DNA from: Devosia sp. 66-14
Lineage (GTDB): Bacteria; Pseudomonadota; Alphaproteobacteria; Rhizobiales; Devosiaceae
Length of the DNA: 64,000 nt
Assembly: GCA_001899085.1 (NCBI GenBank)
Contig: MKVB01000006.1
Location: 691,867-755,866 of the forward strand
Direction: 5' to 3'
The notes beneath the pieces are model-generated. The model was not told where the DNA came from. It was given only the letters and a program-made list of their open reading frames with translations, and did not search any database. The translations under genes and the position numbers were made by a program. Position 1 is the first letter of the stretch; the number at the start of each line of letters is the position of its first letter. Shown in pieces: positions 6,637 through 10,735 of the stretch.

Positions 6637-7071
6637 CTAGAGGAGCACCTGCCCCGCCTCGGGCTCCTCGGGAATCTGCCAGCCATCGGGCAACAGCCGG
6701 CCGAGGGCTGCTGCGGCATGGGCGACGGTGAAGGGTTTGGTGAGCACTTCGCTGGCCCCCAACGCCTTGGCGCGGGCGATGGTTTCGCGGTTGGGATAGG
6801 CCGTGATCATGACCACCGGGACGCGACCATTGGCGGAAAAGCGTGGGTCGCGCATCACCTCGAGCAAGGCCGCACCGTTCATTTCCGGCATGTACCAATC
6901 CATGAACACGATGTCGTAGCGCGTCGCCTGGATGGCCCCTACGGCGGGCGCGGCGCCCGAGAGTTCATCGATCGTGACAAGGCCGAGCTTGCGCAGGGTT
7001 GCGGCCACGGCGGCGCGCGCATACGCGTTGTCGTCGACGACGAGCGCCTTGAGGTCCTGTGGCAGGATCAT
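6637..7071 (-). CDS. single-domain response regulator (CheY-like)
   Basis: 144 residues, all one receiver domain. The acidic pair is D13/D14, the phospho-acceptor D58 lies in IVFMDWYMPEMNG, with T90 and K112 (LTKPF) completing the site. There is no output domain, so it should act by protein-protein contact. No kinase gene is adjacent, and the partner cannot be named. Confidence 0.9.
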   Translation of the reverse strand: MILPQDLKALVVDDNAYARAAVAATLRKLGLVTIDELSGAAPAVGAIQATRYDIVFMDWYMPEMNGAALLEVMRDPRFSANGRVPVVMITAYPNRETIARAKALGASEVLTKPFTVAHAAAALGRLLPDGWQIPEEPEAGQVLL

Positions 7072-7215
7072 TGGCGTTTGGCCCCCCAGCCGATTCGCCA
7101 GTTATGGTGTCGGCGGATCGAAAGCGTGCGGACTTCCGATCGCACGTGAACCGGAAGGTCTCGCGACTTTCCAGACCTCGCTTGTGCGGGCTCATCTATT
7201 TACCGGGAGTTAACC

Positions 7216-7818
7216 ATGTCAACGCCGACCGAGGTGACGCGCTGCAGCTGGGCGGGGAGCGATGCGCTCTACCAGCACTATCACGACCGCGAATGGGGCC
7301 GGCCGGTGACCGACGACACCAGGCTGTTCGAAAAGCTCTGCCTCGAAGGCTTTCAATCCGGGCTGGCCTGGATCACCATCCTGAGGAAGCGCGAGAATTT
7401 CCGCGCCGCGTTCCACGGCTTCGATCTGAAGAAGGTTGCGGCGATGGATGAGGCCGATATTGAACGGCTGCTCCAGGATGCCGGCATCATCCGGCATCGC
7501 GGTAAAATCGCTTCGACGATCAACAACGCCAAACGGGCGCTTGAGCTGCAGCAGGAATTCGGCTCGCTGGCCGCCTATTTCTGGAGCTTCGAGCCCGAGC
7601 CGGTGCAGGGGCCGGTCGTCTCGGGCAGCATTCCGGCGGAGACCGCTGCCTCCAAGGCAATGAGCAAGGACCTGAGGAAGCGTGGGTTCTCGTTCGTGGG
7701 CCCGACCACCAGCTATGCCTTCATGCAGGCAATGGGGTTGGTGAACGACCATGTCGACGGGTGCTTCTGCCGTCAGGAGGCGGAGACCGAGCGAAATGCG
7801 CTGAAGCGGCCGAAGTAA
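7216..7818 (+). CDS. tag: DNA-3-methyladenine glycosylase I
   Basis: 200 residues, the usual length. It excises 3-methyladenine from alkylated DNA. The N-terminal RCSWAG, YHDREWG and LFEKLCLEGFQSGLAWITIL blocks are the family signature, and HVDGCFC near the C terminus supplies the His/Cys ligands of the structural zinc along with the N-terminal Cys and His. GFSFVGPTTSYAFMQAMGLV is the conserved helix before it. The start at 7216 follows CCGGGAGTTAACC (GGAG). Confidence 0.96.
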   Translation: MSTPTEVTRCSWAGSDALYQHYHDREWGRPVTDDTRLFEKLCLEGFQSGLAWITILRKRENFRAAFHGFDLKKVAAMDEADIERLLQDAGIIRHRGKIASTINNAKRALELQQEFGSLAAYFWSFEPEPVQGPVVSGSIPAETAASKAMSKDLRKRGFSFVGPTTSYAFMQAMGLVNDHVDGCFCRQEAETERNALKRPK

Positions 7819-7830
7819 CCGACCGGCCCC

Positions 7831-7864
7831 GGCCCCACCTCGGTGCAATGCGAGAGATGGGGCC
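7831..7864. terminator. hairpin between convergent tag and the small-gene cluster
   Basis: GGCCCCA pairs with TGGGGCC, with CCTC/GAG pairing inside, between the stop of tag (7818) and the stop of the 44-residue gene (7878). It is symmetrical enough to serve both strands, but there is no U-tract. Confidence 0.45.
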
Positions 7865-7877
7865 GGCCACCGGAGGG

Positions 7878-8012
7878 CTACCTGATCAGCAGCAGCGCCA
7901 TCAGTTCGAGCTTGGACAGCCTGAGTTGCGGGCGCAGCTCATCGTCGGGGTTGAGGGGCTGCTTCGGCTTTTGCGGGCTGCGGCGCAGGCCCGGCTTGCG
8001 GGGGAAGAACAT
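7878..8012 (-). CDS. 44-residue protein, paralogue of the next gene
   Basis: ATG at 8012 is preceded by AGAGGA with a 7-base spacer. The peptide begins MFFPRKPGLRR, has a Pro/Lys/Arg-rich middle and ends LSKLELMALLLIR. The end matches the 46-residue gene upstream, which finishes GLELMALFMSR, and both begin with Met-Phe and basic residues. The pair therefore looks duplicated and coding. No known family is recognised. It is 26 bases downstream of its paralogue, probably cotranscribed. Confidence 0.6.
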   Translation of the reverse strand: MFFPRKPGLRRSPQKPKQPLNPDDELRPQLRLSKLELMALLLIR

Positions 8013-8038
8013 GGTGTCGTCCTCTGGATGGATACCGG

Positions 8039-8179
8039 TCATCGGCTCATGAACAGGGCCATGAGCTCGAGGCCGGTGATGTTGCCGAGCAGCGGCAGGC
8101 TATCCTTTTGCCGGTCGCGAGGCGGGAGATCGGGGAGTGGTTTCCGGCGGCTGTCGCCGGAGCGCTTGAACAAAAACAT
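8039..8179 (-). CDS. 46-residue protein, paralogue of the 44-residue gene
   Basis: ATG at 8179. The peptide starts MFLFKRSGDSRRK, has a charged Pro-rich middle (PPRDRQKDSLP) and ends GLELMALFMSR. The C-terminal helix LELMAL is shared with the neighbouring 44-residue protein. AAGGAG is separated from the ATG by a 21-base hairpin plus 8 bases (8188-8208), an arrangement repeated in the next two genes upstream. Function unknown. Confidence 0.55.
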   Translation of the reverse strand: MFLFKRSGDSRRKPLPDLPPRDRQKDSLPLLGNITGLELMALFMSR

Positions 8180-8187
8180 GTACGTGT

Positions 8188-8208
8188 CCGGACGCGGAAT
8201 CGCGCCGG
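8188..8208 (-). promoter_or_regulatory. hairpin between Shine-Dalgarno and start of the 46-residue gene
   Basis: On the coding strand CCGG-CGCG-ATTC-CGCG-T-CCGG forms eight pairs with one bulge. AAGGAG (8209-8214) abuts its 5' side and eight bases separate its 3' side from ATG 8179. When folded, the Shine-Dalgarno to start spacing is 8 bases; unfolded it is 29. Confidence 0.55.
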
Positions 8209-8288
8209 CTCCTTGATCGGTGAAACCGTGAGTGGGGGCGCCGGGCCGACCGAAGGCAAAGCCCTCGCCGGGACCGACGCCCTCCCGC

Positions 8289-8513
8289 CTACATCCGGAA
8301 ATCGGGCGGCAGCCCGATGTCCTTGAGCAGGTGTGGCGACAACGGGGCAGCGCTTCCCCGGCGATAAGGCCGGAGCACGCGACGCAGCATCGCATCGGCG
8401 CGACGCCGGGCGATGAACAGTCGGATACGACCGATGAGGCCGATCTGTCCGACGTCGAACTCGGGGGAATTGAGGACGCGCGACGTGGCGCGGTCCCGTA
8501 CGATGAGAACCAT
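8289..8513 (-). CDS. DUF1127-like small protein, 74 aa
   Basis: ATG at 8513. The C-terminal half reads RRRADAMLRRVLRPYRRG then LSPHLLKDIGLPPDF, the Arg-rich helix and L-x-D-I-G-L block of DUF1127 proteins. DUF1127 proteins in alphaproteobacteria are small, basic and linked to RNA turnover or phosphate and carbon adaptation. The N-terminal 25 residues are unlike the family. Its ribosome binding site AGAGGA lies 25 bases upstream and is separated by a hairpin. Confidence 0.7.
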   Translation of the reverse strand: MVLIVRDRATSRVLNSPEFDVGQIGLIGRIRLFIARRRADAMLRRVLRPYRRGSAAPLSPHLLKDIGLPPDFRM

Positions 8514-8521
8514 CTCAATTG

Positions 8522-8538
8522 CCGGGCGCGAAGCCCGG
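8522..8538 (-). promoter_or_regulatory. hairpin between Shine-Dalgarno and start of the 74-aa DUF1127-like gene
   Basis: CCGGGC (8522-8527) pairs perfectly with GCCCGG (8533-8538) around five bases. AGAGGA is the reverse complement of 8539-8544 and abuts the stem; the bases 8514-8521 separate the stem from ATG 8513, so the folded spacing is 8. Confidence 0.6.
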
Positions 8539-8560
8539 TCCTCTGATGCAAAGCAGAGGG
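8539..8560 (-). promoter_or_regulatory. alternative stem that would sequester the Shine-Dalgarno
   Basis: The coding-strand CAGAGGA can pair with an upstream TCCCTCTG (8554-8560 side) around eight bases. This stem would hide the ribosome binding site and would compete with translation from ATG 8513. Together with the neighbouring 8522-8538 stem it could form an on/off leader. Confidence 0.4.
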
Positions 8561-8571
8561 ACAGCGGTGGC

Positions 8572-8600
8572 TGCTGCGCCCCGCGAACGAGGGCGCAGCA
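8572..8600 (-). terminator. terminator-like hairpin after the 80-aa DUF1127-like gene
   Basis: TGCTGCGCCC and GGGCGCAGCA form a perfect 10-base-pair stem with a 9-base loop, a few bases after the stop of the gene at 8607-8849. There is no T-run. It may end that transcript or mark an RNA processing point. Confidence 0.45.
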
Positions 8601-8606
8601 AGCGCC

Positions 8607-8849
8607 TTACCGATAGTCCCAGTGGCTTGTCGGCTCCATCACCTCGGGCATCAGCCCGAGATCGCGACGGAGATGCGGCGGCACAGGTGGCGATCCGCGA
8701 GACTTGTAGCGTCTCGCCGCGCGCGCCAGCTGGGCGTTGGCAAGCATCGTGACAGCGGCTGAAACCAGCGCGCCGGCGACGCCAACATGGGTGTGCGCAG
8801 GTGCGCGGTTCAAACGTGCCGGGGCACGGGTTTCGAGTTCGAGAGTCAT
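8607..8849 (-). CDS. DUF1127-like small protein, 80 aa
   Basis: I choose the ATG at 8849; an in-frame TTG at 8867 lies inside the leader hairpin. A short hydrophobic stretch (HVGVAGALVSAAVTML, about 20-35) precedes an Arg-rich helix (RAARRYKSRG) and the VPPHLRRDLGL block, ending near HWDYR, a tail common in rhizobial DUF1127 proteins. It is related to the 74-residue protein downstream. AGAGGA, a hairpin and eight bases precede the start. Confidence 0.68.
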   Translation of the reverse strand: MTLELETRAPARLNRAPAHTHVGVAGALVSAAVTMLANAQLARAARRYKSRGSPPVPPHLRRDLGLMPEVMEPTSHWDYR

Positions 8850-8857
8850 GATCTCAT

Positions 8858-8877
8858 CCGGGCGCAATGCGGCCCGG
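8858..8877 (-). promoter_or_regulatory. hairpin between Shine-Dalgarno and start of the 80-aa gene
   Basis: CCGGGC (8858-8863) pairs with GCCCGG (8872-8877); GC/GC inside may extend it. AGAGGA (complement of 8878-8883) abuts the stem, and eight bases (8850-8857) lead to ATG 8849. Sequence and geometry match the leader at 8514-8544. Confidence 0.6.
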
Positions 8878-9014
8878 TCCTCTGGTTGAGAGACAATGGT
8901 GGTGGCGACGGAATCCGGACGCGCGAAGACGCCGAATGGCGATACCGGTGGCTGGAGTTCAGTCGAGGCTAGAAAAGGCTGGGACAGAAGACCCCGGGGA
9001 GGGGTCGGCGCGGG

Positions 9015-9077
9015 TTAGGCGCGATTGAGGCCAGCTTGGGTAACGCCAGGACCGGAAACGAACATCGAATGAATCAT
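9015..9077 (-). CDS. 20-residue open frame with a perfect Shine-Dalgarno
   Basis: ATG at 9077 follows AAGGAGG with a 6-base spacer, the strongest ribosome binding site in this region. The frame stops at 9015. The peptide starts MIHSMFVSGPG. It could be a real micropeptide, a leader peptide for the small genes downstream, or a remnant. Between 9078 and the hisS start at 9275 I see no further gene. Confidence 0.4.
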   Translation of the reverse strand: MIHSMFVSGPGVTQAGLNRA

Positions 9078-9274
9078 GCGTCGCCTCCTTCTGTGGTTGG
9101 CGTTGAACGAAGGGGCTGATACGCCGACTCGAAACCGAAGCCAACCCCCGATGCGGCAGCCTGACGCACCACGGATGTTACTGTTGCCGCAAAGACACAG
9201 GTGCTTTCCTTGAGTCGAAGGGGGCTTTCCGTTAGGAACCAGCCTCAGATTCCGGGCTCTGACCAGCAGACACC

Positions 9275-10735
9275 ATGACCGACAAGAAGAAGCTCATCGC
9301 GCCGCGGCTGCCGCGCGGCTTCGAGGACCGTTTGCCCGCCGATATTTCGGCGGTGAACGCGATGACGGCGAAGATCCGCGCGGTCTACGAGCGCTACGGA
9401 TTCGACCCGGTGGAGACGCCGCTGCTCGAATACACCGACACGCTCGGCAAATTCCTGCCCGACACCGACCGGCCGAATGCCGGCGTGTTCTCGCTGCAGG
9501 ACGATGACGAACAGTGGATGAGCCTCCGCTACGACCTGACGGCGCCGCTGGCCCGGCATTTCGCCGAGCACTTCCAGGATCTGGCCAAGCCCTATCGCAG
9601 CTACCGGGCCGGCTATGTGTTCCGCAATGAAAAGCCGGGCCCCGGGCGGTTCCGCCAGTTCATGCAGTTCGACGCCGACACGGTCGGCGCGGCAGGGCCG
9701 GAAGCCGATGCCGAGATGTGCATGATGATGGCCGACACCATGGATGCGCTGGGCCTCGCCGGCAAATACGTGGTGAAGGTGAACAACCGCAAGGTGCTCG
9801 ACGGCGTGCTGGCATCGGCCGGTGTTACCGACGATGGGCAGAAGCTTGCCGTGCTGCGTGCCATCGACAAGCTCGACAAGTTCGGCACCGATGGCGTGGC
9901 GCTCCTGCTCGGCGCCGGCCGCAAGGACGAGAGTGGCGACTTCACCAAGGGCGCGGAGCTCAGCGACGAACAGCGCGCCACGGTGTTGAACTACGTGCGG
10001 GGCGAAGCGCCTGAGCACAACGAGGGGATCGTCGAACTCAACGCCATGCAGGCGCTGTTCGATGCGGCCGGCTATGGCGCAGACAAGATCAAGATCGATC
10101 CGGCAGTGGTCCGCGGGCTCGAGTACTATACCGGACCGGTGTTCGAGATCGAACTGACCTTCAAGGTGCAGAACGAGAAGGGACAGGACGTGGTGTTCGG
10201 CGCCGTCGGCGGCGGCGGACGCTATGACGGGCTGGTGAGCAGGTTCCGCTCGGAGCCGGTACCGGCAACCGGGTTCTCGATCGGCGTGTCGCGGCTCGCG
10301 CACGCGCTGCGACTGACGGGCAATCTGGGAGCCGAGGAGCCCTTGGGGCCAGTGGTGGTGCTGGTGCTCGATAAGGATCAGACGGCACGCTACCAGGCGA
10401 TCACCTCGCGGCTGCGCCGGGCCGGCATCCGGGCCGAGATGTTCATGGGCAACACCAAGAACTTCGGCAAGCAGGTGGCCTATGCCGACAAGCGCAACGC
10501 CCCGGCGGTGATCATCGAAGGCACGCAGGAGCGCGAGCTCGGCAAGGTGCAGATCAAGGACCTGATCGCCGGCAAGGAGGCCGCCAAGGCGATCGCCGAC
10601 AATGCCGAGTACAAGGCCGCACGCCCCGGCCAGTTCGAGTGCGACGGCGACCTCGACGCGATCGTCGCGGCCATTTCCGAGCTGCCGGCGGTGGCCGCCT
10701 ACCTCGGCGCGAAATATCCGGACGCCGACAAGTGA
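9275..10735 (+). CDS. hisS: histidyl-tRNA synthetase
   Basis: 486 residues; charges tRNA-His with histidine. Class II motifs are visible: motif 2 around [20 protein letters not shown], the histidine loop [13 protein letters not shown] and the [10 protein letters not shown] block, then an anticodon-binding domain in the last 110 residues. It is longer than the E. coli enzyme (424) and has inserted segments typical of the alphaproteobacterial branch, which reads tRNA-His by U72/A73; the tRNA at 2128 has exactly those bases. No strong ribosome binding site precedes the ATG. Its stop overlaps the hisZ start. Confidence 0.97.

Follow-up and report, generated by a model that had tools for sequence, protein, structure and literature searches.

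Five small ORFs lie in a run on the minus strand of the window (the whole stretch of 64,000 nucleotides that was analyzed), with starts at 9077, 8849, 8513, 8179, and 8012, and the run is divergent from hisS, which lies on the plus strand from 9275. The first ORF codes for only 20 aa (9015–9077), and has a strong near Shine-Dalgarno sequence (SD) and no hairpin. Gene 8849 (8607–8849, ATG at 8849–8847) codes for an 80-aa DUF1127-like protein (PPHLRRDLGL...HWDYR), and gene 8513 (8289–8513, ATG at 8513–8511) for a 74-aa DUF1127-like protein with the motif SPHLLKDIGL. Gene 8179 (8039–8179, ATG at 8179–8177) codes for a 46-aa protein with the C-terminus GLELMALFMSR, which resembles the 44-aa protein of gene 8012 (7878–8012, or up to 8025 with its near SD, AGAGGA at 8020–8025); this last gene has no hairpin. 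A C-terminal L-E-L-M-A-L motif is common to these two short proteins, and related genomes of the genus encode counterparts of both. None of the four proteins compared with Pfam scores above the curated cut-off for DUF1127 (PF06568): the protein of gene 8513 has a weak match (14.1 bits, for a cut-off of 23.3), and those of genes 8849, 8179, and 8012 have no Pfam hit at E 1, the protein of gene 8849 aligning with DUF1127-like relatives. Hence, these proteins are named here DUF1127-like only.

The starts of the three middle genes share one arrangement, all of it on the minus strand. Upstream of gene 8849, the distal SD AGAGGA (8878–8883) is followed by the putative bridging hairpin CCGGGC-CGCATTGC-GCCCGG (8858–8877), which has counterparts in five relatives (G003, G011, G013, G014, and G015), and by the 8-nt spacer ATGAGATC (8850–8857). 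Upstream of gene 8513, one finds AGAGGA (8539–8544), the hairpin CCGGGC-TTCGC-GCCCGG (8522–8538), and the 8-nt spacer CAATTGAG (8514–8521). Upstream of gene 8179, the corresponding elements are AAGGAG (8209–8214), the hairpin CCGG-CGCG-ATTC-CGCG-(T bulge)-CCGG (8188–8208), and the 8-nt spacer ACACGTAC (8180–8187). An earlier, sequence-only reading of this DNA had placed an SD 25–29 nt from each of these ATGs, with a hairpin starting directly after it and ending exactly 8 nt before the ATG. Its coordinates agree with the sequence, this geometry is found at all three genes, and none of them has a near SD. Its description of the hairpins as perfect or nearly so needs one qualification, as the stem of gene 8179 is imperfect, with one bulged base. 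The same reading had set apart the neighbors 9077 and 8012, and in a scan of leaders these indeed have a near SD and lack a hairpin. Their near SDs suggest ordinary anti-SD usage; the 3′ end of the 16S rRNA was not found in this genome by two exact patterns.

The frequency of this geometry was assessed in a census of the window and 20 further stretches of the same genome (464 kb), with mechanically listed ORFs. Among the 1013 first ATGs of ORFs with 100 codons or more, three have an SD with an adjacent hairpin of 14–26 nt and a spacer of 7–9 nt, and two of these three lack a near SD. When every ATG is counted, the geometry is found 35 times in 12,921, a figure that includes the window trio. 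A looser scan, which admitted three start codons (ATG, GTG, and TTG) anywhere within the first 60 codons and spacers of 6–10 nt, gave 19 matches in 928 ORFs of at least 150 codons. Given such low frequencies, the occurrence of the geometry at three of five neighboring genes is far above chance. One could still suppose that hairpins arise fortuitously in GC-rich leaders, the GC content being high and the geometry being found at a few first ATGs, but the leader recurs at every one of the 41 Devosia-type loci, with compensatory changes and a fixed spacing (see below), and the probability of this explanation is practically negligible. A covariance model (R1), trained on 24 leaders including the window trio, scored the trio at 48.5, 43.4, and 41.4 bits in its own genome, the next best score being 19.9 bits. 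Because the trio is among the training rows, these scores are no proof of its significance; the search found no close copy elsewhere in the genome.

Distribution of the leader in the family

Close relatives of the same genus retain the leaders, with drift in both the length and the sequence of the loop. At an E value of 0.1 or lower, R1 matches 14 of the 19 genomes that make up the window genus, its own included; its candidate matches include G013:C195 (28 bits) and G017:C164 (26 bits). Reading of the region upstream of hisS revealed the leader also in G005, G006, G018, and G016. When methods are pooled, the leader is present in 18 of the 19 genomes; in the remaining one (G007), the scans of the genus genomes found no leader. 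Elsewhere in the family, the leader was found in genera g2 (G019), g5 (G022), g7 (G024 and G035), g13 (G030), g15, and g16 (G033 and G149); g11 (G028) has an imperfect version. The reading of the hisS-side genes on both strands at 16 loci is what added G016, G024, G030, and G035, and the imperfect G028. The leader is thus present in at least seven genera of a single bacterial family.

Genus g15 is taken as Devosia, given that the query protein from G098 is a 100% match to Devosia sediminis. Five g15 proteins were aligned and used to collect 41 Devosia-type loci from a set of species genomes, with protein similarity as the sole criterion. Of these loci, 37 have Devosia in their title, and the other four come from MAGs or isolates titled at a higher rank. 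All 41 have the leader, with the hairpin straight after the SD, and they contain 36 distinct hairpins of 20–26 nt. The distance from hairpin to ATG is 7 nt in 10 of them, 8 nt in 29, and 9 nt in 2. In these 41 loci, the DUF1127-like gene lies upstream of hisS and is co-directional with it, whereas the window gene is divergent from hisS; the hisS neighborhood is kept between the Devosia-type loci and the window, with its orientation inverted. Among 13 weaker DUF1127-like loci of the family, seven have the leader, one (L108) has it in imperfect form, and five (L105, L110, L111, L114, and L116) lack it. L108, in which the second pair is broken, and G028 are the imperfect hairpins.

In some genomes of the window genus the leader is repeated further. 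In G011 (L005, 1825–2257) and G003 (L006, 1798–2228), two tandem copies of the 8179-type gene are found, and a separate hairpin leader precedes each of them. These two genomes have five hairpin starts within one cluster. The tandem set of the window looks like a local multiplication, within its genus, of a leader that is single at each Devosia locus, a count that covers the matched gene only. This leader seems to be absent from the order's canonical short DUF1127 genes: a far SD followed by CC was found in none of the 13 loci that could be parsed out of 30 fetched, the other 17 being outside the count since the motif missed them. In an order-wide search with a model built from 21 leaders, 116 of 397 genomes had a match with an E value of 0.1 or lower. 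When 30 of the matched loci were read, seven were true leaders (at least 37.2 bits), all from genus g15, and no DUF1127-like protein starts at the other 23 (at most 32.1 bits). This search is insensitive, as it missed the leaders of the window genome and that of G108, which was a training row.

Compensatory change and folded distance

The sequence-only reading had proposed that selection acts on the structure, rather than mere duplication having spread it, and had pointed to compensatory stem changes in relatives as the evidence to look for. Such changes occur in alignment A8, whose 21 leaders have a stem that is continuous or almost so (19 from the 41 Devosia-type loci, L109 from g15, and L082 from g5). 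In this set, 97.6% of the cells pair, five of the eight pairs vary on both sides, and such two-sided changes are found in 17 cells. Of 500 shuffles, none reached the observed paired fraction, number of both-side cells, pair types, or covariation score, and one equaled the count of pairs that vary on both sides. When the partner is shifted by 1–3 columns, pairing falls from 97.6% to 19–55%. The two outermost pairs (C-G and C-G) are invariant among the 21 leaders and, hence, uninformative on covariation. Because kinship inflates covariation counts, changes were also counted on a tree of hisS from 20 of these loci, several nodes of which are poorly supported: parsimony requires six changes on each side of pair 14–22, and eight and five at pair 12–24. 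Among the 36 distinct hairpins, the arms fold better with their own partners (−13.4 kcal/mol) than when swapped (−9.7 kcal/mol), and none of 10,000 permutations reached the real mean, in a test that pools the stem classes and takes no account of relatedness. The 19 leaders whose stem is interrupted (alignment A9) are more uniform, with change on both sides at only one of seven pairs. Together, A8 and A9 cover 38 of the 41 Devosia-type leaders, L135, L154, and L156 being left out.

In some leaders, the replacement extends to whole stems. L109 has the stem CCGAAGCG/CGCTTCGG, with outer pairs CCGA/TCGG; the outer pairs are CCAG/CTGG in L075 and L106 (g16); and the inner stem of G030, ACATG/CATGT, is unrelated. 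The stems are thus kept by structure more than by sequence, which supports the earlier proposal of selection on structure.

These data also bear on the idea that the palindromes act as DNA, either as operators or as dispersed repeats. The CCGG core is self-complementary and recurrent. However, the distance between half-sites varies widely (hairpins of 14–26 nt), the position is locked to the SD and the ATG, and G-U pairs, which would break a DNA palindrome, are kept in 12 of the 168 cells of the 21 leaders. The pattern AGAGGACCGGGC-N(4-12)-GCCCGG occurs only twice in the window genome, at two of these leaders. We find a role as DNA hardly credible.

Distances were tabulated for 83 leaders from five genera (g1, g2, g5, g15, and g16). 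The table leaves out L107, L112, and L115 (which are the same as L122, L118, and L129), L108, G016, G024, G028, G030, and G035. The spacer from hairpin to ATG has a mean of 8.12 nt (sd 0.65), with 7 nt in 10 leaders, 8 nt in 56, 9 nt in 14, and 10 nt in 3. Hairpin length has a mean of 21.3 nt (sd 2.7, range 14–26), and its correlation with the spacer is −0.18. As the spacer is nearly constant while the hairpin varies in length, the conserved quantity is the collapsed distance between SD and AUG. For the 41 Devosia-type loci, the script demanded an SD followed directly by CC and took the best-folding end (a requirement that all 41 passed), and the remaining 42 hairpins had been chosen by eye before tabulation, so the flush junction between SD and hairpin is partly a matter of construction. 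The SD itself (GAGG, GGAG, and variants) lies 22–34 nt upstream of the start codon, and a near SD-like match is present in four of the 83 leaders. The folded distance is 7–10 nt, within the 5–11 nt at which such structures work in phage T4 (see below).

It could be argued that translation starts at a codon near the SD, inside the hairpin, and that the conserved ATG is internal. In 20 of the 83 leaders there is indeed an in-frame ATG, GTG, or TTG 4–12 nt past the SD with an open frame, and gene 8849 is among them, with a TTG 10 nt past its SD. Yet the other 63 leaders have no such alternative start, and the compensatory base changes also argue against this view. Moreover, the summed length of hairpin and spacer falls in all three frames (35, 33, and 15 leaders), and this stretch is therefore not a conserved coding frame. 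We consider an internal ATG very unlikely.

The relation between hairpin and SD can be followed in genes that have counterparts of both types. The 8012 type has a hairpin and a far SD in G003 and G011 (GGGAG-CCGGCG...CGCCGG-ACGACACG-ATG), and lacks the hairpin in the window, G013, and G014, where an SD lies at 8 nt (AGAGG-ACGACACC-ATG, with ACGACGCC in G013); the spacers are near-identical between the hairpin-plus and the hairpin-minus genomes. The 8513 type has the hairpin in the window, G003, G011, G013, G014, and G017, and has a near SD without hairpin in G001 (GAGG-GACAG-ATG) and G015 (GAGG-GATTCAAC-ATG). In both types, with orthology of the swapped starts established by protein similarity and position only, hairpin and far SD are gained or lost together, as a role in shortening the spacer predicts. 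The swap could also have come about by recombination between neighboring copies.

Probable bridging, possible regulation, and known systems

These observations make it likely that the leaders are hairpin-bridged ('accommodated' or 'split') ribosome binding sites. The geometry and its conservation are observed directly, and the bridging itself is what we infer from them. When unfolded, an SD 22–34 nt from the start codon would be too far for normal initiation. The intervening stretch would fold, with its first pair abutting the SD and its last pair 7–10 nt (mostly 8 nt) before the AUG. The 30S subunit would then pair with an SD some 8 nt from the AUG and take the AUG into the P site, the hairpin being looped out. 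Folding thus probably brings the SD to the right distance from the AUG. The earlier suggestion that folding restores the usual spacing holds as geometry, the collapsed distance being about 8 nt, and the need of translation for it would follow from the same model.

The comparison with gene 38 of phage T4, made by the sequence-only reading, is apt, judging from the available part of the source (PMC3014915). In T4, a structure between SD and AUG shortens their distance from 22 to 5 nt in gene 38 and from 27 to 11 nt in gene 25, weaker structures give less initiation in both genes, and the structure of gene 25 is conserved in close T-even phages, as far as that part of the article goes (PMC3014915). 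The Devosiaceae leaders share with these genes, as described there, a distant SD and an intervening RNA structure, and the working principle is the same. Unlike in T4, these leaders are chromosomal, occur in at least seven genera of one family, are tied to one gene family and its cluster neighbors, and are repeated at up to five starts per cluster. They also differ in that the hairpin abuts the SD and, in most cases, ends 8 nt before the AUG, and function was tested for T4 whereas the case made here is based on sequence. In the full-text literature searched, which mostly excludes subscription journals, an SD–AUG bridging hairpin is described for the two T4 genes only; the same literature returned no paper combining Devosia, Shine-Dalgarno, and hairpin, and none for the psbA case. 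The latter, the psbA leader of the Chlamydomonas chloroplast, is a related case that is chloroplastic and protein-regulated. In the thrS mRNA of Escherichia coli, the hairpin precedes the SD instead of separating it from the AUG. The thrS leader has a split ribosome binding site in which the ribosome is said to accommodate a long unmelted hairpin, according to the portion of the source at hand (PMC3936740); it thus resembles the Devosiaceae leaders in the accommodated hairpin and differs from them in its position.

If the bridging reading is true, bacteria maintain hairpin-bridged sites by selection, with stems being replaced through compensatory change. The hairpin-plus and hairpin-minus counterparts would then be ready material on the accommodation of a folded spacer by the 30S subunit, and start-site predictors based on SD spacing may misjudge these genes.

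Predicted folding is consistent with a stable hairpin. When the 83 hairpins are folded alone at 37 °C, their outer pairs have a mean predicted probability of 0.975 (lowest 0.646), and in a 63-nt context this probability exceeds 0.5 in 76 leaders and not in the other seven. In the same context, the SD is itself predicted to be paired (mean 0.71), with values below 0.5 in only 12 of the 83. Leaders are pyrimidine-rich, which lets many SDs pair with upstream bases, and by these predictions the SD may often be hidden. At gene 8513, CCTCTG (8554–8559, minus strand) could pair with CAGAGG (8540–8545) and mask the SD next to the bridging hairpin; the same pairing is possible in G011, G013, and G014, and not in G003. 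By eye, alignment A10 shows no clear conserved upstream partner that would mask the SD. An upstream box resembling GGATTCCG was considered and dropped, as it is present in only 12 of the 41 leaders. An RNA thermometer was likewise discarded, as the hairpins alone are predicted to stay largely paired at temperatures as high as 75 °C (mean 0.88, lowest 0.475; outer pairs of the window trio 0.84–0.93) and neither the SD nor the AUG lies inside the hairpin; the predictions thus make thermometers unlikely.

Such masking is one of the arguments for a different view, in which the hairpin is chiefly regulatory (recognized by a protein, for example a DUF1127 protein acting on the mRNA that encodes it, cleaved by a double-strand RNase, or belonging to a switch with an upstream anti-SD) and bridging is a by-product. 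Two studies of other bacteria point the same way: in the accessible parts of these articles, the DUF1127 protein CcaF1 of Rhodobacter binds RNA (PMC12501420), and a DUF1127 gene of Sinorhizobium is under the control of its mRNA leader (PMC12218461). For the Salmonella protein YjiS, the consulted portion of the former reports no evidence of RNA binding (PMC12501420). On the other hand, 36 distinct hairpins among 41 loci, with variable loop and inner stem, leave nothing conserved beyond the outer CC..GG, and the predicted persistence of pairing at 75 °C speaks against a thermometer. In addition, a mere binding site accounts neither for the constant 8-nt distance nor for the absence of a far SD from the starts that lack the hairpin. 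A chiefly regulatory hairpin is, hence, unlikely.

Bridging and control could also be combined. Given the flush junction, the SD:anti-SD helix may stack coaxially on the hairpin. If translation requires folding, the state or accessibility of the hairpin would set the output of the DUF1127-like genes. In a stronger version, which we consider rather unlikely, SD helix and flush hairpin would form one rod that sets the SD–AUG distance throughout the family, and the hairpin would be an on/off control of small, possibly stress-related proteins. The hairpin would then be opened, cut, or bound, by the DUF1127 protein or by stalled or scarce ribosomes. By analogy with the leader control in S. meliloti and with the RNA-binding DUF1127 protein, feedback or a sensing of ribosome supply is therefore possible.

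No match above the Rfam gathering score was found at eight loci of relatives, and positions 7000–10000 of the window gave four sub-threshold hits only. A far sub-threshold Rfam match aligns the hairpin of gene 8513 (8522–8538, minus strand) with part of the SorX sRNA at 15.2 bits, for a threshold of 46.6, and was taken as chance. In S. meliloti, the gene duf1127_1 is controlled by transcription attenuation via an upstream ORF in its mRNA leader; it resembles the window genes in being a DUF1127 gene with an mRNA leader, and no SD–AUG hairpin is described for it in the part of the article available (PMC12218461). By analogy, the 20-aa ORF that heads the cluster, MIHSMFVSGPGVTQAGLNRA, may be an upstream ORF controlling it. 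Near-identical copies of this ORF are present in G003, G011, G013, and G014.
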